Shown here: piece after piece, positions 1,022 through 29,282 of the stretch | How the letters are laid out: each line of letters begins with the position of its first letter | How positions within the stretch are numbered: position 1 is the stretch's first letter | Source of the DNA: Anaerolineae bacterium | GTDB lineage: Bacteria; Chloroflexota; Anaerolineae; E26-bin7 | DNA: 34,065 nucleotides | Direction: 5' to 3' | Assembly: GCA_029933115.1 (NCBI GenBank) | Contig: JAOZOT010000006.1 | Coordinates: 1-34,065 of the forward strand | Notes under the pieces: generated by a model | The model's input: the letters and a program-made list of their open reading frames with translations, nothing else | Told to the model about the DNA's origin: nothing | Database searches by the model: none | Position numbers and translations under genes: made by a program

Positions 1022-1615
1022 TAAGATCAACCGAAGTGTATGACCCAAGAAGCTGATAACACTTAACGGAATAATCCAACCACAAACACACACAAGTGAG
1101 TTCCACCACCACAGCGGTGATGGCTTATCTGGATGAATGAGACTGGAAAAGAATAGCTCGATTAAATTTCCCTGAAAGCGCCAGCTAAACAGTAACATCC
1201 AAACCAGAATGACCAGTCCCCAGGCTATCAGACCCAGGCCGACATCCCGGTACCAGAGCAGGATGGCAGTGGCAACGCCAGCAGAGCAGACACTGACCAC
1301 AAAAAGCATAGAGAAAAAGAGAGAGAAATTGGGATGGCTAACAGGCAGGATACCCTGAATAACAAGACTGCTGAGAATTAGCGTTATGAGTGGAACTGCC
1401 CAGCCCGGCCAGGTGCGAAAGAATGCTCTGTAGCGGATCATGAGCCAAACTGAGGTAATAACTAAGGTGAGAATAAGCCATGCTGCGTAAGCAATCATTA
1501 GCAACAAGCTACCAAAATGTGTGTCGGCTGGCACGACAAAGATGAGAAGCACGTCAAAGATGAGAAGCCCCCAAGCTAATCTAGTCAGCCATAAAGTCAA
1601 GGTTGCTTTTCTCAC
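1007..1615 (-). CDS. Polytopic membrane protein, unknown function; C-terminus runs into the transposase remnant
   Basis: 202-aa ORF with about 5-6 hydrophobic segments. GTG start overlaps the TGA stop of the upstream gene (GTGA), suggesting translational coupling. Confidence 0.75.
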   Translation of the reverse strand: MRKATLTLWLTRLAWGLLIFDVLLIFVVPADTHFGSLLLMIAYAAWLILTLVITSVWLMIRYRAFFRTWPGWAVPLITLILSSLVIQGILPVSHPNFSLFFSMLFVVSVCSAGVATAILLWYRDVGLGLIAWGLVILVWMLLFSWRFQGNLIELFFSSLIHPDKPSPLWWWNSLVCVCGWIIPLSVISFLGHTLRLILREWQ

Positions 1616-8415: not shown

Positions 8416-10512
8416 TCAGAGAGCAAAACAGTAATCTTCGACAGCAGCAAGTTCAAGGTACATCCAATCCTGCAGACAGCGATACCGGTCCTGGAGGTTC
8501 TTTTCTCTCTCCTGTAAAGCCTCTTCTACGTGAGAGGAGAGTTCAGCCAATTTCTTCTTGAGATTGGCCAGTTGCTTCTCATCGCTCGGATCAGCAGGCT
8601 GCATCTCGGCACTCTTAAGTTTGCCCCAGTTCTCGCGCAGCCGTCCGAGATAGTGATCTTCCAGCAACAGGTTCTTCCCCTCGCTATGCACACGGTGATA
8701 GTCACGCTCCTCTTCAAGCAGACGGTATAGACCGCTCAGGAGCGGATTATTGGGCGTGACTCGAAGCACTGCACTTACATCTTCTATAGCCTCCTCCAGC
8801 GTGGGCGAGTCGCCGATGGCTCGCAATCCCCGCTCAAAAGCCCTTTCCACGTCTTGGCCAGCTTGAACAATGCCTTCTACCTCTCTCTGCTCCGATGTCG
8901 GATCGCCATAAATCTGATCTAGCCAGGTGAGTATTTGCGTATCTTGTTTTGCCAGCGGATTCCGCAGGGACAACACTCTTGAGAACAGAGTCGAAGCTTC
9001 TTGGAAAGCTCCCTGCTCTTTCAGAAGACGTGCTTTTGTCAATGCCAGCCGATAGCCGGCTTCCTGCCACAGCCGAACTTTGACTGTTTTCCATCTTACT
9101 TCTCGTTCGCCTTCTACCTCTTTTCGCCAACTGTCTATCTTTTTGTCATCCAGCTCTTGCTCCACTTGGACGTCTGCCGGTCGGTCGAATTTGAGCATCA
9201 GTTCGCTACGCTCATATAAGGGCCTGATTTCTTCCCAGCGTTTTCCGGCCTGGTAGGCCAATTCAATTATTTGCCTAAGCCGGCTCAGGTGGAGGCGTTG
9301 AACAGGATCGTAGCCGTACTCCTTCTCCAGGTTCTTGATTTCATCCAGGGCCTTGTCCCATTGGGACTTGTACAATGCCTCCTTCATCGGGCGGAAAGGC
9401 GCTTCCACCACTGCGCGCCACAAGGCGCGATGGACGTTATCAAAGCCCGTCGGTTTACGGTCGCCCCACGCCTCAACCCGCAGGCGGAGCACATCGGCGG
9501 CTCGCAGAGCATCCTCAACTCTGTCCCGCTCCACAAACTTCAGGCTTGCAACATCCTCATAGACAGACTTGAACTCTTTCTCCAGTGTCTGGGATTCAGT
9601 TTGCCAGAGGTCAACCTGATGTCCCACGTCCCTCAAGAAATCTGACGCATCCAGGTAGCGCCGCTCCGGGGCAGGATGTAGAAGCCTAGACAAAATCTGG
9701 CGGGTGCCGAAGGAAAGTTGGGACCAGATCGGGTTTCTCTCCAGCGGCTCTTCTAACTGCCAGCCTGCTCCTCGCCGAAAGCGAGGCTCAACCCCCAGCA
9801 GCATCCGATGCCAGAGGATGCCAAAGCGAAACAGGTCCAGGGCAATTGTCCCGTGTGGGCCGGGAGAAGCCACTTTGGTCACGTTCCAATCCAAGACCGT
9901 CAGGCGACCGGGGGGAGACACCCGCCAATGGGTCAGTGCTTCCCGGTCGCCCTGCTTGAAATCGTATTCCTTTTGCCAGCGCAGGTCGGCCAGCTTGCGG
10001 TCGGCACAGGTAAGGCCGGCATCATGTAGGATAGCGAGCATCTCGGCATACTGGCGGGCTATCTCCAGGGCCAGCGGCTCCGGCAGACGCAGGTCTGGCG
10101 GGTAGTCCAGCAGCAGGTCGTGGGCGCCGATGCCGGTGACAAGCTCTTGGACCAGGGCGAGGAAAGTGATCCACCCACCCTCCAGGTATACATCCTGCCG
10201 CAGGTCGCTTTCATTGGCCGGGAAAAGGACACGGGGGAAGTAATGGGTTCCCTTACGCTGCTCTGCCTCGGCCAGGGTACGCAGGTTGCGCCACTCTCGC
10301 ACCAGGGCCTGGTGCCACCGCTCTTCCGCCCGGGCAACCTTGACAGCCACGTGCTGGATAGGATCCTCCGGGGCCTCCGGGTTCACACCCAGGAAGACAA
10401 CGGCGGTGGCTCCGCCGCCTAGCACTTTCTTCAGACGGTAGCGGTTTATACCCAGGCTCAGGGTGCGGCCGAGGAGGAAGTCCGGGGATACGTTTTGGTC
10501 AGTCACCACCAT
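8416..10512 (-). CDS. Divergent eukaryotic-like Ser/Thr protein kinase fused to a helical C-terminal region
   Basis: The track start is 10533; ATG at 10512 (MVVTDQN) has a better RBS (AGAGGCGAATAGT). Gly-loop YRLKKVLGGGATAVVFLG, VAVKVARAE lysine, E in LVREWRNLR, catalytic-loop equivalent LTCADRKLADLRW, DFG-equivalent VLDWNVTKV, subdomain-IX-like LDLFRFGILWHRMLLG. Confidence 0.85.
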   Translation of the reverse strand: MVVTDQNVSPDFLLGRTLSLGINRYRLKKVLGGGATAVVFLGVNPEAPEDPIQHVAVKVARAEERWHQALVREWRNLRTLAEAEQRKGTHYFPRVLFPANESDLRQDVYLEGGWITFLALVQELVTGIGAHDLLLDYPPDLRLPEPLALEIARQYAEMLAILHDAGLTCADRKLADLRWQKEYDFKQGDREALTHWRVSPPGRLTVLDWNVTKVASPGPHGTIALDLFRFGILWHRMLLGVEPRFRRGAGWQLEEPLERNPIWSQLSFGTRQILSRLLHPAPERRYLDASDFLRDVGHQVDLWQTESQTLEKEFKSVYEDVASLKFVERDRVEDALRAADVLRLRVEAWGDRKPTGFDNVHRALWRAVVEAPFRPMKEALYKSQWDKALDEIKNLEKEYGYDPVQRLHLSRLRQIIELAYQAGKRWEEIRPLYERSELMLKFDRPADVQVEQELDDKKIDSWRKEVEGEREVRWKTVKVRLWQEAGYRLALTKARLLKEQGAFQEASTLFSRVLSLRNPLAKQDTQILTWLDQIYGDPTSEQREVEGIVQAGQDVERAFERGLRAIGDSPTLEEAIEDVSAVLRVTPNNPLLSGLYRLLEEERDYHRVHSEGKNLLLEDHYLGRLRENWGKLKSAEMQPADPSDEKQLANLKKKLAELSSHVEEALQEREKNLQDRYRCLQDWMYLELAAVEDYCFAL

Positions 10513-10548
10513 ACTATTCGCCTCTATAACCATCAGAATAAATGGGCA

Positions 10549-13523: not shown

Positions 13524-15116
13524 TCAAACTTTTTGACAACGCTCGACAATCTGTTGAGCCTTTTGATATACATCCTCAAACCCCGGCAGGTTTTGCGTTC
13601 GACCAAGTACGCTATCGGCAAGACGCCGGGCCGTCTCCAGATCACCATCCCATGAAGCGGCCTCAGCCTTGCGAAGCAAGGTGTTCCAATGCACCTTGAG
13701 CCAGGGGGAGAGGTACTCACGGGTTTTGTTCACCTCACGCAGGCGGGGAGCCAGACGGCCGGCCTCTATCACTAAATCCCAAGCTGCCTCCAGATCTTCA
13801 GGTCGCCGTTCTTTAGCTTCCTCCAAAAGTTGAAGAGCTCGCTCTTGCTGTTCCAATGCTGTACTAATCACTTTATCGTAGTAAGCCTGTAACTCCTCAC
13901 GCTCAGCAGATGGGAGAAATTCCAAAGACAACGCTTGCTCAATCCAATCCGCTGCTTGCTTAGGATCACCTGCTAATGTCTCCACCGCTTTCTCTTTATA
14001 CTCCTCTGCCTTGCGGCTGGCATATTCTTGGGCCAGGTTTGATAGATGGTTGATGGCCTCTTGAGCCGGCATGTTTCCCGTGAGCACCAGACCTTCGGCC
14101 TCCCATTCGAATCGGGGTAATTGCTTATGGCCTTCATGATACAGTCGTTCCAATTCGTCAATTATATCTTTAAAATTTCCCTGATTGACCTGAACAATCA
14201 GTGCCTCTACCTTACGATGTGCTTCGTTCCAATGCATTTTGGCTTCTTGAAGAAGCTCCTGGAACCCCTGCTCATTGGGATAGGTCTCGCTTGTATGACG
14301 GGCCAGGGCCATTGCTTCTTCATACCGGTCCAACAACATAAACGGTGAATGCCATAGTTTCTCCAGACGCTGACGAGTATTTTGCAGATGCAGGGACACT
14401 TCTCTGCGACGCTGATAGGCCTGCCAGCGCTCGGATAGGATTTCCAGCTCAAGGCGGTCGAGATCGCAGGCTATCAGTTCAGCTAATATGGCTTGTCCCC
14501 GGTCCAGATCAGCCTTATTTAATCCCTCAGGGCCTTTAGCGAAGAGACCCTCTAGCTCCCTCGTCAGCAATTCCGCATATATCTGGCGCTGTTTCTCAAT
14601 CTTTTGCCCTGTTTCTTCGACTGCCTTGAGTTGCTCCTCGTCGGCAAACTGGTGGGCCTTTTGCAGTGCATCCAGAGCTTCTTTAAACCGCTTTTCCTCA
14701 CTACAGGCGCGTACCTGGTTCATTAATCTTCGAAAACGACTAGACCTTGCGCTTATTGCTTTCTGGTAATGCTTCTCCCAGCGCTGGTTCAGAGCCTGGA
14801 CATCACTGGAGCCAATTTTATTTAAAGCTTCCAACGCCTGCTCAACAGAGGTCCTGTGTTCCTGCGATACCTTTACAGGTTGTAATTGGAGGACGCTTTC
14901 CACCATCTGAGACAGGGTCTGCACCCGTTGCTGGTGCAGAGTCTCAACTTTATCTTTCACTTCTCTTACGCGCTCAACCAAAGCGGGAGAGGGATCGGCG
15001 AAGTCCAGGGCCGCCTCAAGCTCTCGCCTGGCTTCCTCAAAACGATCTTGTTGGGCCAGCCAGATAGCCCGATCCAGGTAGTGAGTGACAACTTCTCGTC
15101 TCACTGCCTCTTTCAT
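13524..15116 (-). CDS. Helical/TPR-like repeat protein, paralogous to the N-terminal part of the 1495-aa protein
   Basis: 530 aa, alpha-helical composition; collinear similarity to 29286-33773; RBS GGAGGGGGTGAGTAG-ATG; start overlaps stop of upstream gene (ATGA). Confidence 0.88.
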   Translation of the reverse strand: MKEAVRREVVTHYLDRAIWLAQQDRFEEARRELEAALDFADPSPALVERVREVKDKVETLHQQRVQTLSQMVESVLQLQPVKVSQEHRTSVEQALEALNKIGSSDVQALNQRWEKHYQKAISARSSRFRRLMNQVRACSEEKRFKEALDALQKAHQFADEEQLKAVEETGQKIEKQRQIYAELLTRELEGLFAKGPEGLNKADLDRGQAILAELIACDLDRLELEILSERWQAYQRRREVSLHLQNTRQRLEKLWHSPFMLLDRYEEAMALARHTSETYPNEQGFQELLQEAKMHWNEAHRKVEALIVQVNQGNFKDIIDELERLYHEGHKQLPRFEWEAEGLVLTGNMPAQEAINHLSNLAQEYASRKAEEYKEKAVETLAGDPKQAADWIEQALSLEFLPSAEREELQAYYDKVISTALEQQERALQLLEEAKERRPEDLEAAWDLVIEAGRLAPRLREVNKTREYLSPWLKVHWNTLLRKAEAASWDGDLETARRLADSVLGRTQNLPGFEDVYQKAQQIVERCQKV

Positions 15117-18100
15117 CTACTCACCCCCTCCAGCTCATCCCGCACCACCAGGCGGGCGAAGGACCAGAAATCGTCTGCTCCAATTCGGGCCTCCCCGGCC
15201 AGGTCGGCTGGCTTCTGCGTCAAAAAGTCACGCAGAGTCTGGCTTGCCTGGGGGATATTGGCTGCTACCACTTCGGCCACCAGCCGGGCCAGTTCATCCG
15301 CGGAATACTGGTGCTGCACCACATCCGCGCGCGGATGGCCCAGCACAAAGCTCTGCATGGCCCGCACCACTAACGCCACCGGATCGTTCGGGCGGTCGCC
15401 CCGGGTCAGGGGTATCTCCTCCTGGTCGGGCAGCACCAGCACGTACCGCTCCCGCCATTCACCCCGCTCCTGGAAGCGACTACGTACTACCCACCCCAGG
15501 GCATAGGCCAGCACGAACTCCCGCGCCCGTTCCAGGTCTTCCAGGGCCGCCACAAAGTGAGGATGGAAAAGGCGCGGCGGCTCGTGCAGTTCGCCCAAGC
15601 GTTGCTCATAAGCTAAGGCGTGCCGCTCAGCGGCGAAGATATGGACAGGCTCTGGCTGCGAACGAACATCCCGCGCCCAGGAGATCTCACCCAAGCGGTG
15701 AGCATTCTTGTACTCCGTCTCCAAGCGGGCGACACAATCCAGCGCCGACAGGGGCAGGATATCCAGCGAGGTGATGAGAGCCGCGCTGTAGGGGTCGGTG
15801 GCATTGAGGCGTTGCACCTCTTCCCGCATATTGGCCACCAGTTGCACCTGCCGGGCAAAGGCATCGCGGCTGCGCACCGTCCGGTTCACCCACAGATAGC
15901 GATGGGGTTCCTGCTCGTGGGCCATGCCCACCCGCACTGTGGTCAGCGGCTCGGCCCAGGCTCGCGCTTCCTCGCTCTCCCGGCGTAGCAGCTTTTCATC
16001 CCGCCACAGGCCGCGCTCCTCATCGTCGAAGAAGGGGTCCAGCCGCAACTGCCAGACCTCCTGGCCGACAGCCTCGGCCAGGGCCAGCAGGCCGGCCAGG
16101 AACTGCTCCTGTCCCTGGGCGTCGGCAGTAAAGGTGATATCTTCCCAGTGGCGCAGGGCCAACTCCAGTCCGCCATCGGGCCGCTCCCGCCAGTAGAGCC
16201 GCTCCAGCCCCTCGCGGGTGAGGTAGGGAGCGAAGTAATCCCGGTACAGCAGGTTGAAGAACTCTTCATCCGCAAAGACCTGGCGCACCGATATGCGACG
16301 CATTTCCTCTCGCCGCTGCTGCTCCTGGGCCAACTGTTCCCGCAGCAAGTCCAGCAGCCCACGCCGGACCGGTTTTTGCCCCGGTGCACCGACTGGCGTC
16401 TGGCCCAGCAAGAAGTTAACACTCTGGGTCACCTGGGCCTGCACCTCGCCCACGATGCGTTCCTCCTGGCCGATGAGGTCGAGCAGCGCCTTGTGCCCGG
16501 CCTGCATCTCTGTGGGCACCTGACCGGCCAGGTATTCCGCCCGTTCCCGTGTCCGGCGCAGGGTGGCAGCCAGTTCATCCAGGAAGGCCAGGGTGTAGCC
16601 CAGCTTGCCGCTGCGGGCGGTGGTGATCTCATCCTCGGGCCGGCCGTTGAGCAGGCGCAGGACAGTGGCATTGAGCACCTGTCGGAAGTGGGTCAGGTGA
16701 TCTTTCACTCCATTAGGGGTCAGGCTGCGCCACTCCGGGGCCGGTCCTGCTCCCTGGGCCAGGTTGGCAACCAGGATGGTGGCGCCGCCGACCCCTTCAC
16801 CTCGCCCGGCCATCGTGCCCCGCAGAAAATGGTCGGCCATCACTGCTAACCCGTCGGGGTATTTATCCTGACAGAGGTCTGGCGAGAGAGTGATCTCCCG
16901 CCCCTTGAACTCTGGCCCGGCCAGGTACAGCACCAGCAGATCATGGGCAAAGCGTAGCTTGAGGCCGCGCGCCAGGTCACGCAGGGGCAGACGATAGGTG
17001 TAACCGCCCAGGGTGCTGACCACTGGCTCGCCCCGCTCCACCTGGACAGTGGCTGCCTGAGTGCGCAGATTGGCCCGCACCTCCTCCATCAGCCGGCTAC
17101 CCCGGTCAATGAAGGCTGTAATCAGGTCAGCCATCAGTGGGAACATCCCTCGCTCAGGTTCCAGGAGGGTCAGGGGGTACTGTGGCCGCTGACCGTCGAA
17201 GATAAATATCTCATCAAAGACGGACCATTCGATGTAGCCATTGAAGACCTCGTCGCGGCTCTCCTGATTATAGGTCATCGGGAAGGGTCTTCCTCGGGCC
17301 AGCAGAAAGCGTCCCAGTTCACGCAGGGTGGCCATGCTGTTCAGTGTCAACTGGGGCGAGCGAGTATGGACTACGAAAGCATTGTCGGTGGCCAGGAAAG
17401 CGGTGACGACAGCAGCGGCGTTCTCGCCTGTCACCTGTGTTGCCCGGCGAACCAGGTAGGCCACGTCGGCCAGGGTTCCGCTGCCAAAGCCACCGGCCAG
17501 CGAACCCACAATGATCACCCGGGCCTGCTCCTGGTACAACACCCGGCGCACGGCCTGGCTGAGGGTCTGCCACAGGCGAGAGGCCTCCCCCTGGTGAACG
17601 TCGTGGAAGACGACCGCCCGGCCCACAGGCCGTCGCTGGTGAGTGGTGCGGCGTACATCCATCTGGGCATCAGGCAGATGGCGAACGCGGGTGTATTCCT
17701 CAGCTGGGAACCAGCCTTGCATCTCCGGCTCAGCCTCTGGATCCTGGGCCATCCGCCGGATGAGGTCGCGCAGGTCTTCGCCCATAACCAGTTGCTCCTC
17801 ATCGCTAAGACTGACCCCGGCAAACTGCACCGTCAACTCCTGGCCCTGGACTATCTCCTGGGGAGCCGTATCCAAGAGCAACAGTTGCACCTGTTCTCGC
17901 CACTGCCCGGCTCCGGCATCCAACAGGTTCTTCTTGAGATGGGTCAGCACCCAGCGCCCGGTTCCGCCCAGACCGATGACCAACGTAGGGGCCGGGTCCC
18001 ATTCCGGGGGGAGACCCCGCCAGTGGGCTAGAAACTGCACCGGCCGGCGTGGTTCAGGTCGTCCACCCAGCGGGGGCAACGGGATCGGTGGTGACACTGC

Positions 18101-21100
18101 TTTTTCACGACAAAGCAGCCAGCGCAGCAAGAGTAGCAAGAGCAAAGGCAGAAGCCAGGGCCACAGGTTCAGCAGCCGCTGCCAAAGGGGAGGTGGTTGG
18201 AGCGGCTCACCCCAGAAGGGCGTGTGCTCAAACACGTCGGGACTGGCCGCGCCGGGCAGAGGGATAGCCGGGCCAGAGTTGCCGTTTTCATCAATGGCCG
18301 TAACGAACACATCGAAGACTGGGTCATAGCGCTTGCTGTTGAAAGCCAGCCAGCGTCCATCCCGTGACCAGGTGGGCCAAGAGTTGCTCACGTTTTGGAG
18401 AGAGGTACCATCCGGCGCATCATTGGCCGCCAGGCGGCGGGCGTCGCCGCCGGCTGCCGGCACCAGGTAGATCTCGGCTGCTTCGTCAGAATAGGTGTGA
18501 TGACCCGTAGTGTGATGGGTGAGAGCCAGCCAGCGGCCGTCGGGGGAATAGGCGGGATAGTAGTTGAAGCCCTCATCGCTGGCCCCTGGCAGGGGTTGGG
18601 GTTGGCCGCCAGCAGCAGGCACGACATAGATGTCGCAAGGCCCTTCCACATCGGCTCCGCCAATACCCAATGGTGATTCGCTGCGCACAAAAGCTATGAT
18701 CTGACCATCAGAACTCCAAGCAGGCATAGTCTCTGTCAAAGCAGGATCGCTGGCACCCGGCAACGGCGTCACCGTGCCAGTTTGCAGATCAAGAATGTGA
18801 ATATCGCCGGTAGAGTCGGAGAAGGCCAGTTGCTGACCATCCGGAGACCAGGCATAGTAGACAGCGTCAATTGGTGGGATGTTCACCCGCTCCCCGGAGA
18901 GGGTGTAAATCACACCTCGACCGGGGATAGGGCCGACCACCGCTGCAATCTGGTGAGAGGCATTGGAGACAGCGTGGCAGCCCATGCATCCTTCTTGGTT
19001 GAGAGCGCGGAAAGGTGCCGGCTGAGCACCTTCCTCCTGACTGGTGAGAAAGATGCCAAAATCGCCACGGCTGGGGTCCATTCGCCAGAAGTAGATGGCC
19101 TCGGCGGGTTTGCACAGGCCAACGAAAAGCTCCCGGCCAATAAGAAAGGCCAGAAAGAGAGCATAAAGCAGAAATAGTATGGAAAGGATACGGCAGGGCC
19201 AACGCCAGCTCAGCCACAGGTTGTACCAGGCCATTTGGTTGCGGCGCGACCACCACCAGAGCAGGAGCACCAATAACAGAACCAGGAGCAGGGGCAGGAG
19301 CAGCGCCGGCACCCACCAGTAACGACTGGAACAGAAGAGGGGCTGGGTAGGCCGGGGCAGCAGGTCCAGCAGGCCAGGTGCGGGCGTAGGCACCGCTGGG
19401 GTGATCATCACCCCGGCGGGCGTTGGCGAGGCGACAGGAGTCGGGGTTAGTGTTGGAGTAGGTGTAGGGGTGGGTGCGAGAGCTTGTAACCATAGACCTG
19501 GCCCGGCCAGAAAGGCTCGGGCTTCTCTCTCGCACAGGATATACTCAACCCGGTCGCGCACGTCCACGAAAAACTGGCCGGATTGCCGGACTCTGGCCCG
19601 GTAGGAGACGACATGTTGCTCCCCCAAACTATTCAGGTGCCAGAGGATTGCATTTTGTGCTGTTTCACCGGTAAGCGACCCATTATCGGAAATCGAATCA
19701 GGGATGACCTCAATTTTAGCCGGGTCGAAGGTGTGGTTGATTTTGACGTCAGTGGCCGTGGCAAACTCCCGTATCTGTTGGGCGATAGAGATGTAGATGT
19801 CCTTGAGGTCAGAGGTGTCAGGAGAGAAATGATAATCGGCCGGGCTACTGGCAATCTGCTGCATCAGATCCTTATCCACATCGGCCCCAATGCCTACGGA
19901 AATGATGCGTATGCTGTCGGCTTTGGCTGCATCGGCGGCATTGACGGCGGAATAAAAATCACTTTGTCCATCAGAAAGGATGATGATCACAGGTGCGGCC
20001 TCAGCTCGACCATTACTGCGCAAGTCATCGTGAGCGACTCGTAAACCCTCATCTATCGCAGTGCCATCCCCGCCAGTGATGCTATCTATGCTGGCTTTGA
20101 TAGCAACCGGATCATGGGTCAGGGACTGGAGAAGATCGGCAGTGTCATTAAATTGAACCACTGCAACCCGGTCGCTCGCCATGTTCATTTCGCCGACAAA
20201 AGCTTTAGCTGCCTCTTTGGCATTTGCTAGCTTGGACTGGAAACCAATGACCGGATCCTCCATGCTGCTGGAGTGGTCAATGACCAGCATAGCATCCAGG
20301 GGCTTACCGGTGATCTCTGGCCCGCAGATGGAGCTATCGGCGCTCAAGATGAGATTAATAGTCACTTCCTGGCCGGGTTGAGTTACGGAAGGGACAATGT
20401 TTTTCTCCAGGCGCACTGCCTCATCGCCCGCCGGGGAAGGGGTGAGTGGGACCACCGGCGTTGGAGTGCTGGTGGAGGGTATCGTCGGTATGGGTGTGGG
20501 CGTGGCTGTAGAGAAATAAATGCCGTCACCGGCCGAACGCACCTCGCCCGCCGCATTGCGCAATTCAACGGTCACTGTATGCAGTCCTTCGCTACCTGGC
20601 AAGCTCCAGGACAACGTAGCGCTGAAGGGTTGCCAGTCGCCGAAGGGCTCCTCGTCGTTGCGCAAGCGCATCTCAGTGGCCCATTCCTCACCGTAGATGT
20701 GGAGGGTGACCGTCGGTGTCTCGGTGGAAAAAGCCTCGTTGTTGATGACAACGGGGAAAACATCGGGACTGGTGCCAAAGTTCTGCACCCAGTAATGGCT
20801 ATAGGGAGCATCTGGTTGGGGGAAAGAATCGTTTGCGTCGAAGGCATACCCTACGCCGATTTCACGGACACGAGGGTTGAGGATGTTGGCTCGGTGTCCA
20901 GAACTTCCCATCCAATTCTGCATGACTTCGGCCGGCGAGGCGGCACCGCTGCCAATGTTTTCGGCTACCACAGACCAATGATACCCGGCAGCGGTAATCC
21001 TGTCAGCCGGGGTAGTCCCAGTATGGGGGTTGCTGTGATCGAAGAAATCCCCCGCGGCCATTGCCTCAGCGTGGGCCTGAGCCGCCTGAGCCAGCAGGGG

Positions 21101-21286
21101 GTTTTCTTTCAAGGGGGGCAAGCCGGCTTTCTCGCGCTCCAGGTTGGTCAGGTAGATGACTTCCTGGGCTGGGGAAGGGGCAGGTAATTCACCCTGAGCC
21201 AACCCTACTAGGGGGAAACCAGGTGTAAGAGAAAAGACCAGAACAGTACAGGTGTTCGCCAGCAATAGAAAGAGCCTGCGTTTCAT
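15113..21286 (-). CDS. Giant transmembrane fusion: signal peptide, CAP/SCP domain, vWA domain, TP linker, TM hairpin, CxxCH plus PD40/TolB-like propeller, TM, cytoplasmic tubulin-like domain
   Basis: The track start is 21463; MKRRLFLLLANTCTVLVFSLTPGFPLVGLAQG at 21286 gives a signal peptide and RBS-like AAGGGGGAATTCG. CAP: LNLEREKAG-type region NLEREKAGLPPL...HAEAMAAGDFFDHSNPHTG...VAENIG...SSGHRANILNPRVREIGVG. vWA: AMLVIDHSSSM. PD40 motifs WSPDGQQLAFS, WSSDGQIIAFV, YSPDGRWLALT, WSRDGRWLAFN. Tubulin-like: LVIGLGGTGRWVLTHLKK and VGSLAGGFGSGTLADVAYLVRR. Confidence 0.9.
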   Translation of the reverse strand: MKRRLFLLLANTCTVLVFSLTPGFPLVGLAQGELPAPSPAQEVIYLTNLEREKAGLPPLKENPLLAQAAQAHAEAMAAGDFFDHSNPHTGTTPADRITAAGYHWSVVAENIGSGAASPAEVMQNWMGSSGHRANILNPRVREIGVGYAFDANDSFPQPDAPYSHYWVQNFGTSPDVFPVVINNEAFSTETPTVTLHIYGEEWATEMRLRNDEEPFGDWQPFSATLSWSLPGSEGLHTVTVELRNAAGEVRSAGDGIYFSTATPTPIPTIPSTSTPTPVVPLTPSPAGDEAVRLEKNIVPSVTQPGQEVTINLILSADSSICGPEITGKPLDAMLVIDHSSSMEDPVIGFQSKLANAKEAAKAFVGEMNMASDRVAVVQFNDTADLLQSLTHDPVAIKASIDSITGGDGTAIDEGLRVAHDDLRSNGRAEAAPVIIILSDGQSDFYSAVNAADAAKADSIRIISVGIGADVDKDLMQQIASSPADYHFSPDTSDLKDIYISIAQQIREFATATDVKINHTFDPAKIEVIPDSISDNGSLTGETAQNAILWHLNSLGEQHVVSYRARVRQSGQFFVDVRDRVEYILCEREARAFLAGPGLWLQALAPTPTPTPTLTPTPVASPTPAGVMITPAVPTPAPGLLDLLPRPTQPLFCSSRYWWVPALLLPLLLVLLLVLLLWWWSRRNQMAWYNLWLSWRWPCRILSILFLLYALFLAFLIGRELFVGLCKPAEAIYFWRMDPSRGDFGIFLTSQEEGAQPAPFRALNQEGCMGCHAVSNASHQIAAVVGPIPGRGVIYTLSGERVNIPPIDAVYYAWSPDGQQLAFSDSTGDIHILDLQTGTVTPLPGASDPALTETMPAWSSDGQIIAFVRSESPLGIGGADVEGPCDIYVVPAAGGQPQPLPGASDEGFNYYPAYSPDGRWLALTHHTTGHHTYSDEAAEIYLVPAAGGDARRLAANDAPDGTSLQNVSNSWPTWSRDGRWLAFNSKRYDPVFDVFVTAIDENGNSGPAIPLPGAASPDVFEHTPFWGEPLQPPPLWQRLLNLWPWLLPLLLLLLLRWLLCREKAVSPPIPLPPLGGRPEPRRPVQFLAHWRGLPPEWDPAPTLVIGLGGTGRWVLTHLKKNLLDAGAGQWREQVQLLLLDTAPQEIVQGQELTVQFAGVSLSDEEQLVMGEDLRDLIRRMAQDPEAEPEMQGWFPAEEYTRVRHLPDAQMDVRRTTHQRRPVGRAVVFHDVHQGEASRLWQTLSQAVRRVLYQEQARVIIVGSLAGGFGSGTLADVAYLVRRATQVTGENAAAVVTAFLATDNAFVVHTRSPQLTLNSMATLRELGRFLLARGRPFPMTYNQESRDEVFNGYIEWSVFDEIFIFDGQRPQYPLTLLEPERGMFPLMADLITAFIDRGSRLMEEVRANLRTQAATVQVERGEPVVSTLGGYTYRLPLRDLARGLKLRFAHDLLVLYLAGPEFKGREITLSPDLCQDKYPDGLAVMADHFLRGTMAGRGEGVGGATILVANLAQGAGPAPEWRSLTPNGVKDHLTHFRQVLNATVLRLLNGRPEDEITTARSGKLGYTLAFLDELAATLRRTRERAEYLAGQVPTEMQAGHKALLDLIGQEERIVGEVQAQVTQSVNFLLGQTPVGAPGQKPVRRGLLDLLREQLAQEQQRREEMRRISVRQVFADEEFFNLLYRDYFAPYLTREGLERLYWRERPDGGLELALRHWEDITFTADAQGQEQFLAGLLALAEAVGQEVWQLRLDPFFDDEERGLWRDEKLLRRESEEARAWAEPLTTVRVGMAHEQEPHRYLWVNRTVRSRDAFARQVQLVANMREEVQRLNATDPYSAALITSLDILPLSALDCVARLETEYKNAHRLGEISWARDVRSQPEPVHIFAAERHALAYEQRLGELHEPPRLFHPHFVAALEDLERAREFVLAYALGWVVRSRFQERGEWRERYVLVLPDQEEIPLTRGDRPNDPVALVVRAMQSFVLGHPRADVVQHQYSADELARLVAEVVAANIPQASQTLRDFLTQKPADLAGEARIGADDFWSFARLVVRDELEGVSR

Positions 21287-21587: not shown

Positions 21588-24500
21588 CTACTTCACACCT
21601 TTCAGCAAGTCGTCCATGGCCAGATTCAGGCTCTCGATGTCCTCATCGAGGATCATGAATTGGGCGATGGCGACATCCTGGTCTAGGACACTGGTCTGTT
21701 CGTTACGGATCAGTTTTTCAAGCTCTGCCTGTTTCTCTTGCAGGAATCGGCGTTCTAGCCACAACCGCTGGAAACGCTCTCTGTCTGTCTGAGGAAGCAT
21801 CTCGGCGCGCTCGCGGAAGGCAGGGTCGTCAATACCGGTACCCTTTTGTTGCATTTCCGTAACCACCCTGTCCCTGGCGGCCTGCACGGCCCGACGGGCA
21901 CGGGGGTAATCAATGGGAAGAGTTACGTCAGGTCGTACATCTCGTCGCTGATAGCTCCAGATTTTCATGGCCTCTACGATGTCTGGATCGCCGGGAGCCG
22001 GGCGGGTCAGGTAAATCTTCAGGGCCGGCTCCGGCCCCCGGACACTGCCGGTATCCTCCGGCGGCAGGTCCAGGCACCAGAAGTTTTCGTATCCGCCGCC
22101 AATTCCTTCATGCCGGTCCCGGTGGATGAGATCGAAGGCCTGGCAGCGGACAAAGAGACGGAGTAGGTCCATGTCTTCCATTTGCAACACAATATCGTTA
22201 TGCAGAGCCCGATGCATGATATTTAATCTACCCGGAATACGGGTCTCCAGCCGGGCAGCGTTCACCTCGGCTGGGAAGAGATGGAGTGTCTCCCGGCCTA
22301 GCCGACCCCGGATGCCCCGAGCGCCCTCTACCTCACCAATGTGGGTCCAATAGTCCGCCTCAGCGCCGCGATATGACTCCACCCCTTCCAAAGGGATCAG
22401 GTCTAGAGTATGCACCAGGCGCAGAGCGAAACGATCTGTCGAGTTGACTACATCGTTCAGCTTCCCTCTGGCCTGGGTCAAGTTTTCCAGACGAGATCGG
22501 ACGGCTTCCAGGTAATCTCGCTCAGCCGGGTCAGTGCCGTAGGCTACGTGGAGGTAATTGGCCGGCACTACTGACTCCCCCGTGGCACTTAGCAGGACGT
22601 CGGCTTTCGCCGCCAGGAGGTCGGCCAGGGCATTGGGATCGGTGAATCGCCGGGTCATCAGGTATTTCAGGATGGACTCCTGTTCCCAGGCATCAGCAAA
22701 TACCTGGCGGGCAGGCGTGAGCAGGAGGTTCAGATTTCGTTCCTGGTTCTCTAACCCCAGGCGATTTTGTGCTTCGTCTTCCGAGACCTGAGCGAGAAAG
22801 CGAAAGCCAAAAGTTTCTTTGAGGCCGGTCCGCTGCTGCTCATAGCGCCAAAGGACTTTGGCCAGGTAGTCGTCCACGCCGGGGCGCAACTCCTGGGCGT
22901 ATTTCTGGTAAAGCTGGTCCAGATAGCCCTGGTCCCAGACGAACTCGCGCACTGGCACTGTTTGCTCAGCTTTGATGGCATTTCTAATCTGGCGCTCACC
23001 ACGCAACAACCAACCGTATAGGCTGTTATAGCCAAGGCCCAGGGTTGAGGCCCAGCTTTGCGCGCTCTCCCGCAACTGGTGGGTATGTTGCAACATGGCA
23101 TCCACTAGGCCCCGCACCAGGTCTTCAACGATGAGGGTCTTCTCTATGTCTATTAACTCCTGCTCGGCATCCAGGTAAGCCTTGCGACGTCGTCCACCAA
23201 AGATACCACCTGGTTTTGCTTCCAACTCCTGGCGCGTAGACTGGACTGCTGAGATGTTGGTCTGTTTTTCCCCACGAGCCTCTCGCATTTGTCCGGCTTC
23301 ATTTAGCGCTTTAAGGAAACGACCCAATATCTCTTCCAACCTCTCCAGGAAATCCAACAGGTAACCCAGTTTGCCACCTCGCTGGACGGAGGCCGAGTCG
23401 TCCGGGTTTTGCCCACCGTTTAGGATGTTTTCACACTCTGTTTGTAGAAATAACCGATAACGATCCAGTTGGATTCGTGTGTATTCTTCCAGCGCCAGGC
23501 GATATTGCCCCCCCACGCGTTGGCCGGTGCGCAGATCCTCGCGGCCCAGGTGATAGCCCTTGTAGGCTTCCACTCCCCGCAGGATACGATCAAGGGCACT
23601 GCCGGCGCTTTCCCCTCGCTGGTTGGGGGGCACCTCATCTGTCAGACGGCTACTCAACTCCTGTTGTACCCGCTGCCGTATGGCAACGATTTCACTGGTA
23701 GTGCCAGGCGGATCCAGGTGTATCTCCCAGTCGCGTACTTCGCGCGAGCTCAATTCTTTCACGATAGCCGGGTCCTGGGGGCGGTAGTTGAGAGACACCC
23801 GTGCTACTTCTTGGAAGAAGGGGGTGCTGGCTATCCGTTCGCCGCTGCGCAATGATTGCACCTCGGCCGTTTGGAGAAAACGAGCAGCGGCATCCCGACC
23901 GGGCACGCCAGGGATTTCGGCGTTGGCATCGGGGGCCAAAGCAGTCGGGTAGCCGTCTTCGTCCTTCCTGTCAGGCCTCAAAAGGATATCCAACGCCTCC
24001 AAAGCCAGGCGATGGGCCAGCCAGTCGGTGATGTGGTGCATCGGCAGAATCAGTGAAAAGCCTCCCACAGCCGAGTCGAAGGATGTCGTGCGCTCATCTC
24101 CCACCTGCAATCCCATCTGCGAGGCCTGAGAAATGACGTTGGTCGTGTGCCGGTCGTAGACGTCCTCCTCCCCCTCTTCAGGCCTGTCCAGCATGGCCGC
24201 GATAGCATCAGCGATGGCGGCTGTCACCCCGTACTCCGGCAAGACGTTAGTCAGGGGATTACGCTTGCTCTGGCCATCTACATGGTAGAGGAAATCAAAC
24301 AGTTTGGTCTTGATGGAATTACGCCAGATACCCCCCTGACCTGAGGCATGGTAATACATTGGGTAGCCATGCTCATACTGGAAGTCCACCATAAAGCGCT
24401 TGTTTTCCCTCATGCAGGCATAACTCCGGGCCCGCATGGCTGGTTTCACACCGCCGGGGATGGCGCTGAAGGCTTCGGGCAACACCAGGAAACCGCGTAG

Positions 24501-25154
24501 GTGAGTGGATAACTGGTGATCCATTTGAGCGATCTGCCGCACCAGGTAGGCAATGTCCACAAACATGCCCGCTCCAGTACCGCCAGCCACCGAGGCCACC
24601 AGGAAGACATCCATTGAGGTGAAGAAACCCGTCTTGCGTATATCGCCGATGGCTCGATTTAATAAGTTGTAGGTAGAAGAGCGGGCTGGCGCCGAGACAT
24701 CGTAGAAGACGGCCAGGCGGCCAAACTGGCGCAATTGCCCTGAACCACGTTCCAGAGTAAACGAGGCGCGGGGGAGGCTCTCCAGGTAAGTGCGTGCCTG
24801 GAACCAGGGCCCGATGTGAGGATGTTTCCCTTGGTCTACCTGACGGACGAAGTCGTAAACGTCACCGCCGATCCAGTAGTACTCGCCTGGTTCGAGCTCT
24901 GTGCGCAAAGCAGCAATCTGTATCTCCCCTGAGGTCTGCGCTGATTGCCCTTTGTCCTTGACGGTATCCAGGGCAATGAGCTTCACCTGAGGTGGCAGAC
25001 TGCGTTCTCTGGAGGTCAGCAAATGTGCTTTCAGATGGCGCAGGGTCAGCACGCCGGTGCCACCCAGTCCAATTACTAGTGCTGGACGATACATGGGTTC
25101 ATCTCCTTCTTTTAGCTTACGCAGTAATTGTTCAGGCTTCCGAGGTTTTGCCAT
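21588..25154 (-). CDS. Tubulin/FtsZ-superfamily-like protein (Tubulin_2-type) with long C-terminal extension
   Basis: 1188 aa; N-terminal ALVIGLGGTGVLTLRHLKAHLL nucleotide-binding loop and tubulin-signature-like VASVAGGTGAGMFVDIAYLVRQ (G-box at 24567-24584). Confidence 0.85.
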   Translation of the reverse strand: MAKPRKPEQLLRKLKEGDEPMYRPALVIGLGGTGVLTLRHLKAHLLTSRERSLPPQVKLIALDTVKDKGQSAQTSGEIQIAALRTELEPGEYYWIGGDVYDFVRQVDQGKHPHIGPWFQARTYLESLPRASFTLERGSGQLRQFGRLAVFYDVSAPARSSTYNLLNRAIGDIRKTGFFTSMDVFLVASVAGGTGAGMFVDIAYLVRQIAQMDHQLSTHLRGFLVLPEAFSAIPGGVKPAMRARSYACMRENKRFMVDFQYEHGYPMYYHASGQGGIWRNSIKTKLFDFLYHVDGQSKRNPLTNVLPEYGVTAAIADAIAAMLDRPEEGEEDVYDRHTTNVISQASQMGLQVGDERTTSFDSAVGGFSLILPMHHITDWLAHRLALEALDILLRPDRKDEDGYPTALAPDANAEIPGVPGRDAAARFLQTAEVQSLRSGERIASTPFFQEVARVSLNYRPQDPAIVKELSSREVRDWEIHLDPPGTTSEIVAIRQRVQQELSSRLTDEVPPNQRGESAGSALDRILRGVEAYKGYHLGREDLRTGQRVGGQYRLALEEYTRIQLDRYRLFLQTECENILNGGQNPDDSASVQRGGKLGYLLDFLERLEEILGRFLKALNEAGQMREARGEKQTNISAVQSTRQELEAKPGGIFGGRRRKAYLDAEQELIDIEKTLIVEDLVRGLVDAMLQHTHQLRESAQSWASTLGLGYNSLYGWLLRGERQIRNAIKAEQTVPVREFVWDQGYLDQLYQKYAQELRPGVDDYLAKVLWRYEQQRTGLKETFGFRFLAQVSEDEAQNRLGLENQERNLNLLLTPARQVFADAWEQESILKYLMTRRFTDPNALADLLAAKADVLLSATGESVVPANYLHVAYGTDPAERDYLEAVRSRLENLTQARGKLNDVVNSTDRFALRLVHTLDLIPLEGVESYRGAEADYWTHIGEVEGARGIRGRLGRETLHLFPAEVNAARLETRIPGRLNIMHRALHNDIVLQMEDMDLLRLFVRCQAFDLIHRDRHEGIGGGYENFWCLDLPPEDTGSVRGPEPALKIYLTRPAPGDPDIVEAMKIWSYQRRDVRPDVTLPIDYPRARRAVQAARDRVVTEMQQKGTGIDDPAFRERAEMLPQTDRERFQRLWLERRFLQEKQAELEKLIRNEQTSVLDQDVAIAQFMILDEDIESLNLAMDDLLKGVK

Positions 25155-25187: not shown

Positions 25188-28100
25188 TCAGCCTAGGCTG
25201 GCGATGACGGAGAAAATAACTCCGCCCAGGCCAGCTAGCATCACCAGACTGGCCAGACCATAGGACAACACGGCAAGGCTCATTGATGCTCTGACCGCTG
25301 AACTGGCACCTATCCCGCGCTGATAACTGACAAACACGTTACCACCTAGCGACTTTCGCGCGCCATCAACCATCCTCTTAAATGAAAACCTGCCTCTTGG
25401 TCTGAGCTCAACAGTTACCTCAACCGGTGGATTTCGCAAGCCACGCGGCTGATGCACCACAACCTTGCGGATGCTGGCTGGTAGACCATCTCGAGCGGTG
25501 AACGCTAATGTATGTTTGCCGTAATCTCTCAACCGGCGTGTCCAACCTGGGCCTGCACCTTCAATCGTAAGCGTGCCTTCAGCGGACCAGAGGTGCAAGT
25601 ACATTTGATACGCCAGATAAGCTGATAGAATGGCGAACCACACACCCAGGATCGTCGGCAGCACCCACCACTGAGGATGGCGTCCGAGATGTACCCGTAC
25701 CGTTACGCCATCGGGCTTCTCGTAGATGTATGCCTCTTTCAGATCGCTCAGTGGATGAACGCGGATCTCACACCAGCCCAGGTCCCGGTGAGCATACCAG
25801 TTAAACGGTCCGTAGTCATTAAAAGAGGCCAGGTAGCGACCAGGGGCGCTGCCATGGGTCAGCTTGAGTGGGCCGGTGGTTTGCCCCTCGGGCGAGATGA
25901 CCTCTACGGCGAGGGTCGTTTCGGCCGGGTTTTTCTGGATCTGAGCAGGTGCAAGGGGCTTACCTGCCTCATCTGTTACCGCCACTTCAATTCCCAGTGG
26001 GCGGGGGCGCCAGAAGAGATCTCGCCAGGCATACTCCTCCGCTTGGGGGCGAGTCACGAGGATACGCACCAGGCTCATTGGCCGGATAGTGAAAAGTAGG
26101 GCTGTGTGGTCTTCTACCAGGGGGATTTTTTCTCCGATGGGGCTTTCTGCCTGGACAGAGACGGTCAGGGTGAAATCCCCGGCTTTCTGCGGGGTGAACT
26201 CGCCTGTCCAGCGACCCTGCTTTTCCACCGTCAAAGGCACTGCTTCCGTCAGGCCTCCGCCTTTCACACTGGCCTGTGCCTCCAGGCGCCAAGATGGATC
26301 CATCTGATCCCCCATAGGGTTGCCCGTCTGGTCAGCCAGGTAAAAAGTCACCGGCGCCGCGCGATACTGAGGCCACGGACTGGAAAACCCATCCCAAATA
26401 ACCCGGGGTGGCTGCACTTCCAGGCTGCCCATGTCTTCGTCGAAGGTTGTGAACTGCTGGCCTGTGGCCGGGTCCTTCACTTGGCCTAGCAAATGCACCC
26501 GATACTTGCCGGGGTGTGATGGGGTGAAAGTGCCCTGGTAACCTGCTTCGCCAGGGGATAAATCTATAGAGGTATCCTGACCGGCTATCGTAAATGTCAG
26601 GCACATCTGCACAAAGGCGGCCGATTCGGGAGGTACCTGTAAGGGAGCGCCACTGGCATCGGTCAGGACTACGGAGACCAGTACAGGCAGCAATGTCGTT
26701 GGCGTTCCGGCGACGTTCAGGTGCACCGTGGTTGGTTTTACCTCAAAGGTGGCCATCCCCTCCGGTGGCTTGCGGAACAACTCAAATGGCTCACCGTCTG
26801 GCTTCTGAGTGGTGGCTACAATGTTGAAGGCATATTTACCGGGTTGGGCGGGGAGATAGTAGGCTGTGTATTTGCTTTCTCCCTGCGGTGTCAGCACGAG
26901 ATGCTGGCTGGTGCCATCACCCTGTATCTCGGCTTCCACCGTCAGGCGGAAACGAAGATCGTCGTAAGGGGGTAATGCTCCTCCACGGCCGCTCAAAGTG
27001 CATTGCAAACGCACAGGGATATATTGTGGCACTGATGAGAGAGGATCACAGGCCGCGTTGGCTACAATCTGGATCATAAAGATGCGCAGGATGCCAGCGG
27101 AGACAGGCCGCTCGATAGTGATATAACCCGGTTCGGGATTGAGGATGGTGATGCTTTCAATATACCGATCTCTATCCTTCACGGTGGCGGTCGCCAGACC
27201 TTCCAGGAGCTGTCCATCCTGGTACATCTTCACCCGCACCTCAGGCTCTGGTTTATGTATGACAAATGTGATCTCTTGCAGATAAGGTGGCACAGCGATG
27301 CGGTCCTGCGTTTCAGGGATCTCTACGACCTCGCCTCGGGTCGTTTTCTTATCGGCCAGGCCGGGCTCGTTGACCGTCAACTCGGCCAGGATGCCCTCGA
27401 AGAAAGCCCACATGGTGTTGGCATCCACCAGTTCGGCATTATTGTGAGTCCAGTCACTCCAGTATCCTCGGACACGGGACCAATATTCGTTGCTGCGGTC
27501 GTTGATGGCTCCCACAAAGAAACGATAGCGTGGATAGGATAATTCATCCTGAATATACTTTGCCAGCATCTGACGGTACTCAAAGCTCTGGAATTCTCCG
27601 TCTCGGCAATAGGCCAGCGCTTCTTCGCCCATCTCTGGGCAACTCAGGTACCATTCCCCATCGGTAAGCATCAAAATTACCTGAAGATGCTCACCATCTT
27701 GCCAGGTCTGTTGCATCGCCTGTAAAATGCTCTTGGCTTCTCGGAGCGCGCTCAAGTGGTCGGTATTTCCCAGATTGGTTGGAAACGCATCGGCCGAGAG
27801 TTCCGATTGCAAACGGCTGGAGAGAGGTTGCCACTCGTCGGACGTGTCGGGGTCTATGATAGTCGGCGTGACAATGGTCACCGGGCGACTGCCAAAGTAA
27901 ACCACTGCGATCTGGAACTGTACGTCCGAGTCGTGGAAGTAATTGAGGCGGTAGCCAGCCAACCGTTCCACCATTTGTTGCAGGCCGCTGAAGCGCAGGT
28001 CGTTGGGATCATTGGCCTGGGGATGATCCTTACTGCCGTAGTTCAGACCACCCATTGAGCCTGACTGGTCAACCAGGAACACGACGTCCACGCCAGTGTA

Positions 28101-28214
28101 ATCCTGTTTCTCATCTTGCGCGCCAACTGTCAAGGGATTGGTTATCGGCAAAACTGAAAGCAAAAGACAGATACCCAGTATAAAGAAACCTCGCCCACGA
28201 GGATACGGCCTCAT
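25188..28214 (-). CDS. Secreted/membrane-anchored von Willebrand factor A domain protein with C-terminal TM and cytoplasmic tail
   Basis: 1008 aa; signal-like N-terminus GFFILGICLLLSVLPITNPLTVGAQ; MIDAS DVVFLVDQSGSMGG (28053-28070); Ig-like extracellular region; TM WWVLPTILGVWFAILSAYLAYQMYL; RBS AGGAGGAGCAAT-ATG. Confidence 0.88.
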   Translation of the reverse strand: MRPYPRGRGFFILGICLLLSVLPITNPLTVGAQDEKQDYTGVDVVFLVDQSGSMGGLNYGSKDHPQANDPNDLRFSGLQQMVERLAGYRLNYFHDSDVQFQIAVVYFGSRPVTIVTPTIIDPDTSDEWQPLSSRLQSELSADAFPTNLGNTDHLSALREAKSILQAMQQTWQDGEHLQVILMLTDGEWYLSCPEMGEEALAYCRDGEFQSFEYRQMLAKYIQDELSYPRYRFFVGAINDRSNEYWSRVRGYWSDWTHNNAELVDANTMWAFFEGILAELTVNEPGLADKKTTRGEVVEIPETQDRIAVPPYLQEITFVIHKPEPEVRVKMYQDGQLLEGLATATVKDRDRYIESITILNPEPGYITIERPVSAGILRIFMIQIVANAACDPLSSVPQYIPVRLQCTLSGRGGALPPYDDLRFRLTVEAEIQGDGTSQHLVLTPQGESKYTAYYLPAQPGKYAFNIVATTQKPDGEPFELFRKPPEGMATFEVKPTTVHLNVAGTPTTLLPVLVSVVLTDASGAPLQVPPESAAFVQMCLTFTIAGQDTSIDLSPGEAGYQGTFTPSHPGKYRVHLLGQVKDPATGQQFTTFDEDMGSLEVQPPRVIWDGFSSPWPQYRAAPVTFYLADQTGNPMGDQMDPSWRLEAQASVKGGGLTEAVPLTVEKQGRWTGEFTPQKAGDFTLTVSVQAESPIGEKIPLVEDHTALLFTIRPMSLVRILVTRPQAEEYAWRDLFWRPRPLGIEVAVTDEAGKPLAPAQIQKNPAETTLAVEVISPEGQTTGPLKLTHGSAPGRYLASFNDYGPFNWYAHRDLGWCEIRVHPLSDLKEAYIYEKPDGVTVRVHLGRHPQWWVLPTILGVWFAILSAYLAYQMYLHLWSAEGTLTIEGAGPGWTRRLRDYGKHTLAFTARDGLPASIRKVVVHQPRGLRNPPVEVTVELRPRGRFSFKRMVDGARKSLGGNVFVSYQRGIGASSAVRASMSLAVLSYGLASLVMLAGLGGVIFSVIASLG

Positions 28215-28412: not shown

Positions 28413-29282
28413 TTAATAACTGTGCTGCCGGGCAAGAATTTCATAGAGATGTCTGGGCATTGGCACTTTTGCAGCCTCAAATTCTCCCCGATTGTACGGG
28501 ATTCGTCGGAATTCCACGGTCCATTTCACCGTCTCAAGGACGGCGTAATAGGCTGCATTGGTATCTTTAACATTACGAGGGACGCCTACGCTTCCCGGAC
28601 AGATCATCGCCAGCCGGTCACCGTTCTCCAGCAAAGCCTTTGGTCCCCCCGCTGGCTCATATAATTCTTCTCCGGCTTCCCATTCCCATCCCCGTGGTTT
28701 TTCCCATTGCTTAGCCCTTCCGTGGGCTGGTATGTGAGTGTGCCCCACGACTATCAGCCGGGGAAGTGCCTCATCATGTAGTCGCAGAATTGTATCCAGC
28801 ATCAAGTCCGGCGGCAAAGACCAGGGGTTGCAATAGGCATTGGGGCCTATGTTCTCTGCCTCGTGAGGGTCTGCTGACAACACTGCGCCATGGGCAGCGT
28901 AAATGCCGGCGTTTGCCCTTTGCCAGGCAGGACACTCCTTCAATTTCTGGATCCGCCGGGCTGGCAGCCCGGCCTCAAGCTGTTTAGCGTGCCACAGGGC
29001 AACGAGACGCTCGTCTTCACCAGGAGCCAGGTAACGTATGGCTTGATCGCCCACATCAGTGCCTTTCCACATCTGTAGGGCAGCCAGGTCGTGGTTGCCC
29101 ATCAGCCAGACGGTCGGCTCCCATTCGTCCAGCAGATTGATACAGCTTATGGGCAGGGGACCATAGCCCATTACATCGCCCAAAAACCAGAGTTCATCTA
29201 CCCCCAGCTTTTTAGCATCCTCCAAAACGGCCCGCAGGGCTGGCGCGTTGCCATGTATATCCGCCAGCAATGCCACACGCAT
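28413..29282 (-). CDS. Calcineurin-like metallophosphoesterase
   Basis: 289 aa; LLADIHGN, FLGDVMGYGP, LMGNHDL, VVGHTHIPAHG metal-binding motifs; starts 3 bases after the upstream stop. Confidence 0.92.
   Translation of the reverse strand: MRVALLADIHGNAPALRAVLEDAKKLGVDELWFLGDVMGYGPLPISCINLLDEWEPTVWLMGNHDLAALQMWKGTDVGDQAIRYLAPGEDERLVALWHAKQLEAGLPARRIQKLKECPAWQRANAGIYAAHGAVLSADPHEAENIGPNAYCNPWSLPPDLMLDTILRLHDEALPRLIVVGHTHIPAHGRAKQWEKPRGWEWEAGEELYEPAGGPKALLENGDRLAMICPGSVGVPRNVKDTNAAYYAVLETVKWTVEFRRIPYNRGEFEAAKVPMPRHLYEILARQHSY

Follow-up and report, generated by a model that had tools for sequence, protein, structure and literature searches.

Can one bacterial polypeptide cross the membrane with adhesion-type domains outside and a tubulin-like domain inside, and what might such a protein do? 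The question is raised by a 34,065-nucleotide contig (JAOZOT010000006.1; the window) from the 4.58-Mb draft genome, in 897 contigs, of an Anaerolineae bacterium (GCA_029933115.1). An initial annotation had described a long gene on its reverse strand, here called Tub2-B, as a membrane-spanning tubulin fusion with CAP, vWA and beta-propeller domains. We confirmed this observation. The open reading frame (ORF) runs from an ATG at 21286, with a strong ribosome-binding site (AGGGGG) 6 bases before it, and all 2057 codons were open. The protein comprises, in order, a signal peptide, CAP, an Ig-like domain, vWA, a second beta-sandwich, a TP-rich linker and a first transmembrane helix (TM1). A basic loop leads from there to TM2, the PD40 propeller and TM3, and the chain ends with the Tubulin_2 domain and ~600 aa of C-terminal region. 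The CAP, VWA, PD40 and Tubulin_2 matches all exceeded the Pfam curated cut-offs, and hydropathy and AlphaFold2 strands agreed with this order. As a whole, the interpretation placed on the gene was partly supported; it did not mention a CxxCH motif in the propeller or a second Tubulin_2 gene next door (21588-25154).

To exclude a gene fused by assembly, we relied on its recurrence. The same architecture was present in a second genome (G008; 53% identity over the full length) and at a closer locus (L061; 78% identity). When 85,462 species genomes were scanned, 17 loci emerged, and with the loci from a class-wide search added there were ~17 distinct single-ORF versions with the propeller, two of them clipped by a contig end and one lying behind a gap of N. 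Further versions comprised four vWA–TM–tubulin proteins without the propeller, one whose start, at the end of its contig, falls within the propeller, and one divided between two ORFs. The named sources belong to the Chloroflexota classes Anaerolineae, Chloroflexia (including Candidatus Chloroploca mongolica) and Limnocylindria, and one further metagenome-assembled genome (MAG), labelled Candidatus Elulimicrobium, is placed outside Chloroflexota by NCBI. In that MAG (L101:2826-8853, + strand), the ectodomain and the tubulin part of the fusion are encoded by separate ORFs that overlap by 20 bases, and a vWA is inserted within the Tubulin_2 domain; this locus could be natural or the result of a frameshift. 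Each measured domain of Tub2-B was under purifying selection, with a ratio of non-synonymous to synonymous divergence (dN/dS) of ~0.10 overall against its nearest relative, L061, where dS was saturated in places, and of 0.04-0.17 in the segments with unsaturated dS. A draft of 897 contigs invites the suspicion that misassembly or misannotation joined unrelated genes, but with an identical domain order in independent assemblies and selection acting across the segments, we rejected a chimera and give this explanation almost no weight.

Membrane topology and outer domains

Charges flanking the TM segments, compared across 16 homologous fusions, bore out the positive-inside topology that had been proposed. 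The basic cytoplasmic loop separating TM1 from TM2 (SRRNQMAWYNLWLSWRWPCR in the window) was net positive in 15 fusions and neutral in one, and the segment after TM3 was positive less uniformly. These sequence signals support a placement of the CAP, vWA and propeller domains outside and of the tubulin domain inside.

The vWA domain has all the residues of a metal-ion-dependent adhesion site (MIDAS; DHSSS, GTAI and SDG). The best Foldseek matches to the ectodomain were the vWA pilus adhesins SpaC, RrgA and Mfa5, together with BatB, integrins and VWF A3; homology to integrins along the whole chain was not found by Foldseek, as the similarity lies at the level of the vWA only and whole-chain template-modelling scores (TM-scores) were low. 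The Ig-like segment formed a beta domain in the AlphaFold2 model, mostly with good confidence. The model was poor at CAP because CAP-bearing homologues are few, although the Pfam match is clear; a further match to this region (TIGR02909, 7.9e-27) fell under the cut-off of that model. Among five aligned CAP domains, the first His and the Glu were kept in all five and the later His was missing from two. Judged by its structural matches, an adhesive role for the ectodomain seems no less plausible than a sensory one. Its modules are also exchanged: on the tree, gain and loss of CAP took at least three changes, and some members carry extra vWA domains. At two loci (L067:4572-11537, − strand; L068:9215-16297, + strand), an additional vWA lies between TM3 and the tubulin domain, on the predicted cytoplasmic side. 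Synonymous divergence (pS) between the window gene and L061 was 0.72-0.83 in CAP, TM1–TM2 and the propeller and ~0.55 in the tubulin and C-terminal parts; recombination or domain exchange of the outer half is possible.

The propeller was modelled mostly at a predicted local distance difference test (pLDDT) of 80-95, and a CxxCH motif opens it at all 18 distinct homologous loci that reach this point. Other proteins of related genomes gave PD40 matches that, among the matches listed, start no earlier than residue 779 and so do not cover the motif at 767-771. The source genome contains four matches to cytochrome c assembly proteins (PF01578), all above the cut-off. Given the invariant motif, its predicted extracytoplasmic side and these assembly matches, a heme c covalently attached to the propeller, outside the membrane, is likely. 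A literature search for TolB propellers with CxxCH found nothing. On the tree, a single change explains the distribution of the TM hairpin and propeller. From this and from the position of the four proteins without the propeller (L064, L069, L070 and L073), an older vWA–TM–tubulin form probably came first and the propeller entered once.

The tubulin-like domain and its soluble partner

The Tubulin_2 domain scored 117 bits against a Pfam cut-off of 27. AlphaFold2, given 31 rows from the gene's own loci, modelled residues 1062-2057 with a pLDDT of 88 and a predicted TM-score (pTM) of 0.87. When this cytoplasmic part was compared with the PDB by Foldseek, the top 50 matches were exclusively CetZ, FtsZ and tubulins (best E 2.1e-4, probability 1.0), with target-normalised TM-scores of at most 0.49, so that the likeness to tubulin is remote. 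Searched by sequence profile, the PDB yielded no tubulin and only a chance-level match to prefoldin (E 0.026). Pfam, Foldseek and conservation in independent genomes support assignment to the tubulin superfamily, and because the top 50 of the fold comparison came from this superfamily alone, a C terminus unrelated to tubulin can be set aside. However, of the ~950 C-terminal residues that had been called tubulin-like, ~360 form the GTPase-type fold; the other ~600 make up a C-terminal region with helices at model positions 501-528, 531-566 and 583-602, followed by a helix-rich domain with some strands. This region is partly common to the product of the neighbouring gene. The tree of Tubulin_2 domains places Tub2-B as a divergent subfamily of FtsZl1/Tubulin_2, an assignment by descent and not as an established GTPase. 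A third, weak Tubulin_2 match in the source genome (G000), on the small contig C754 (L029), was under the cut-off (E 5.7e-5).

The second Tubulin_2 gene, Tub2-A, encodes a soluble protein and lies directly upstream of Tub2-B in the window. This pairing extends to nearly every locus with neighbouring DNA: among 23 loci with a B gene, the contigs that reach far enough upstream carry Tub2-A adjoining it or at most three genes away. Three contigs (L061, L078 and L093) start at or inside B, two (L065 and L088) have a fragment of 459 or 358 aa between the contig start and B that was not recognised as Tub2-A, and in L091 Tub2-A lies across a gap of N from B. We rejected a 3513-aa ORF joining A and B at this last locus (L091:3989-14530, + strand; Candidatus Chloroploca) as a natural fusion and did not use it as evidence, because it is produced by a run of N beside zinc-ribbon-like repeats.

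In a tree of 57 Tubulin_2 domains, the membrane-spanning B rows formed one clade (support 99/94 without the long-branched L064 and 75/45 with it), sister to a Tub2-A clade (97/98). Pairwise distances among A and among B proteins were correlated (r=0.78 over 13 pairs), and none of 20000 permutations reached so high a value. This shows that A and B have been inherited jointly since an old duplication.

The two partners differ in their nucleotide-binding loops. The T4 loop has the family signature GGGTG(S/T)G and reads GGTGAG in the Tub2-A of the window. The pattern GGTGx[GA] was present in 21 of 24 Tub2-A proteins and in all 11 other Tubulin_2 proteins, as against 1 of 22 Tub2-B proteins, where the decayed forms include GGFGSG, GGM-SG, DDVGSG and SEGM-SG; these rows are related, so the counts are not independent events, though several distinct decayed forms exist. 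By contrast with T4, the T1 motif (GxGxxG) retained all three glycines in each Tub2-B row aligned there. We infer that GTP binding by Tub2-B is weak or absent and that the protein acts as a nucleotide-deficient partner. Its degenerate T4, together with a constant partner gene, makes it less likely to be a sensing and polymerising tubulin in its own right and more likely to anchor or nucleate a different one. In two other Chloroflexota operons, a canonical Tubulin_2 protein of 840-940 aa is followed by a very divergent relative (L079:11125-14010 and L080:11605-14937, both + strand) with two or three hydrophobic segments, placed differently; a membrane-bound second tubulin may therefore be a wider rule.

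Operon context and possible functions

Tub2-A and Tub2-B sit in a recurrent operon with the order metallophosphatase, vWA/filamin-Ig membrane protein, Tub2-A, Tub2-B and kinase-like protein, some genes being missing or off the contig at individual loci (Table 1). In the window, three other genes lie between Tub2-B and the kinase-like gene, and hydropathy placed TM segments of the vWA/filamin-Ig protein at 850 and 987. Homologues of the kinase-like protein gave weak Pkinase matches at four loci, and the window copy matched only PADLOC kinase models. PADLOC gave no match for the tubulins or the fusion and no defence assignment. Farther off, the window holds a transposase fragment (451-933) and an M48-like membrane peptidase (1612-3522), both just below Pfam cut-offs.

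Table 1. Positions in the window of Tub2-B, its parts and the neighbouring genes
Feature	Position	Strand	Evidence
Tub2-B, transmembrane fusion gene, 2057 aa	15113..21286	−	ORF, Pfam, ribosome-binding site
Signal peptide MKRRLFLLLANTCTVLVFSLTPGFPLVGLAQ, residues 1-31	21194..21286	−	Sequence, hydropathy
CAP/SCP (YkwD-type) domain, residues 45-170	20777..21154	−	Pfam PF00188 3.8e-22
Ig-like beta domain, residues 185-262	20501..20734	−	AlphaFold2 strands 192-258
vWA with complete MIDAS, residues 333-497	19796..20290	−	Pfam PF00092 5.1e-22, motifs, Foldseek
Second beta-sandwich after vWA, residues 507-605, then TP-rich linker	19472..19768	−	AlphaFold2 strands
TM1, residues 659-677	19256..19312	−	Mean hydropathy 2.94
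TM2, residues 698-716	19139..19195	−	Mean hydropathy 2.53, charge
PD40/TolB-like beta-propeller, residues 731-1036, predicted extracytoplasmic	18179..19096	−	Pfam PF07676 4.8e-17
CMGCH, a CxxCH (heme c attachment) motif at the propeller start, residues 767-771	18974..18988	−	Conservation
TM3, residues 1041-1059	18110..18166	−	Mean hydropathy 1.98
Tubulin_2 (FtsZl1-type) domain, residues 1102-1450	16937..17983	−	PF13809 1.5e-33, AlphaFold2, Foldseek
Degenerate T4 loop GGFGSG, residues 1265-1270	17477..17494	−	Alignment
Long-helix and mixed C-terminal region, residues 1461-2057	15116..16906	−	AlphaFold2
Tub2-A, soluble Tubulin_2 partner, 1188 aa, T4 GGTGAG, no TM	21588..25154	−	PF13809 1.3e-39
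Secreted/TM protein, vWA and filamin/Ig-like, conserved upstream gene	25188..28214	−	VWA_2 5e-9, Filamin 2e-10, synteny
Calcineurin-like metallophosphatase, conserved first gene	28413..29282	−	PF00149 5e-15, synteny
TPR/helical protein, 4-base overlap with Tub2-B end	13524..15116	−	TPR_14 3e-7
Divergent protein kinase-like, conserved downstream gene	8416..10533	−	PADLOC mad6 9.5e-9 / PD-T4-6 9.1e-8; synteny

The account that we favour, and find plausible without going so far as to call it probable, is that Tub2-B is the membrane anchor or receptor of a two-tubulin (A and B) cytoskeletal or scaffold system. Outside, it would present adhesion-type modules (the vWA with its MIDAS and, in some members, CAP) and the CxxCH propeller. 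Three TM helices would join these to the inner tubulin-like domain, which has largely lost T4 and could serve as a membrane-fixed seed, cap or dock for a GTP-binding soluble Tub2-A. Binding or a redox change outside might then alter the assembly of Tub2-A, or the reverse, by an integrin-like logic, and the kinase and metallophosphatase of the operon could tune the system through phosphorylation. Of this account, the data show the architecture, the topology signals, the tubulin fold as a predicted model, the gene pairing with its correlated divergence, the loss of T4 in B and the recurrent operon; heme attachment, contact of A with B, GTP binding by A, filaments and the direction of signalling are inferred. 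We regard as doubtful the fullest version of this account, in which an integrin-like transmembrane receptor with a tubulin as its cytoplasmic half combines heme c, adhesion domains and pseudo-GTPase pairing to form membrane-tethered A/B polymers regulated by kinase and phosphatase. Several points weigh against the anchor account. CxxCH alone does not prove heme, and correlated divergence of A and B is also expected from simple co-inheritance and does not by itself demonstrate contact. At most loci, the divergent kinase-like proteins fail to reach the Pfam kinase cut-off. Filaments, too, are not assured, because the T6-H7/T7 elements used for known filament contacts could not be identified in the FtsZl1 family by Makarova and Koonin (PMC2875224).

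The decayed T4 of Tub2-B and the recurrent kinase-like and phosphatase neighbours would also fit a signal receptor that forms no filament, its tubulin folds acting as a nucleotide switch and as a scaffold that presents the two enzymes. The heme-type motif, which suggests ligand or redox sensing, points the same way, and transport or signalling roles were raised by a reviewer of the 2010 paper (PMC2875224). Yet T4 is intact in Tub2-A, and a single switch would not need the joint retention of two tubulin-type proteins from lineage to lineage; we consider such a receptor possible but not very likely. Membrane remodelling, as proposed for FtsZl1 in 2010, is rather unlikely in our judgement. Here, A and B tubulins would reshape the cytoplasmic membrane into vesicles, internal membranes or septa, and the outer domains would do no more than tether it to the wall or the S-layer of the cell. 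The family and operon type are the same, the link to the membrane is now physical, and CAP and vWA could hold partners in the wall or matrix, but the invariant CxxCH and the exchange of outer modules, with its repeated changes in CAP and its extra vWAs, are left unexplained. We think it improbable that the locus is a system of biological conflict (defence or contact-dependent), in which the outer adhesion and CAP domains would recognise a partner or phage and the kinase and tubulin would trigger a response. Its patchy distribution and the weak similarity of the kinase-like protein to the mad6 and PD-T4-6 models would suit such a role, whereas the operon recurs without a recognised toxin or nuclease and neither the tubulins nor the fusion matched PADLOC.

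Comparison with known systems

The architecture had been put forward as not described, and as far as the literature searched shows, this holds for the single-chain transmembrane form but not for its family. No paper that our search found, which left out most subscription journals, preprints and the architecture lists of protein databases, describes a tubulin that crosses the membrane and bears extracellular domains. The FtsZl1/Tubulin_2 family (PF13809) and its operons with vWA, kinase and membrane-protein genes have been known since 2010 (PMC2875224). FtsZl1 shares with Tub2-B the tubulin-superfamily domain, a C-terminal part with long helices and these operon partners. By contrast, its vWA and FtsZl1 are separate proteins encoded in one operon, and FtsZl1 was judged likely to be cytoplasmic, whereas Tub2-B unites vWA, CAP, the CxxCH propeller, three TM helices and the tubulin domain in one chain beside a second, soluble copy. 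Fusions of FtsZl1 to kinases occur in Planctomycetes (PMC2875224), and a 2023 survey, in the part available to us, speaks of 'irregular domain architecture' and kinase fusions (PMC9871819). Closest in attaching a tubulin-like domain to TM helices is one archaeal FtsZl1 gene (SSO1376-type) with N-terminal TM helices, but it is broken by a transposon and no extracellular domains were described for it (PMC2875224). One objection raised in review of the 2010 paper was that an FtsZ-like protein in the cytoplasm could not join a complex with exported proteins such as those with vWA (PMC2875224); a vWA and an FtsZ-like domain on one chain across the membrane answer how exported and cytoplasmic parts could cooperate. 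Tub2-B gives a direct model of a tubulin-family protein as an integral membrane receptor and adds a likely heme cofactor. It also points to an A/B pair of tubulins in which one partner is membrane-anchored and probably nucleotide-deficient.

Sister paralogues retained jointly are familiar from alpha/beta tubulin and from BtubA/BtubB of Prosthecobacter. The Tub2 pair differs in that one member spans the membrane and has a decayed nucleotide loop, and its heterodimer is putative. With integrins and the vWA pilus adhesins SpaC and RrgA, Tub2-B has in common an outside vWA with MIDAS, matched in fold by Foldseek, but the chains as wholes do not share an ancestor. The analogy to integrins is functional, an adhesion domain outside linked to a cytoskeleton inside. 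Integrins reach actin through adaptors, whereas the cytoskeletal-type domain is part of the Tub2-B chain itself, which may thus tie the cell's surroundings to a cytoskeleton within, with nothing in between.

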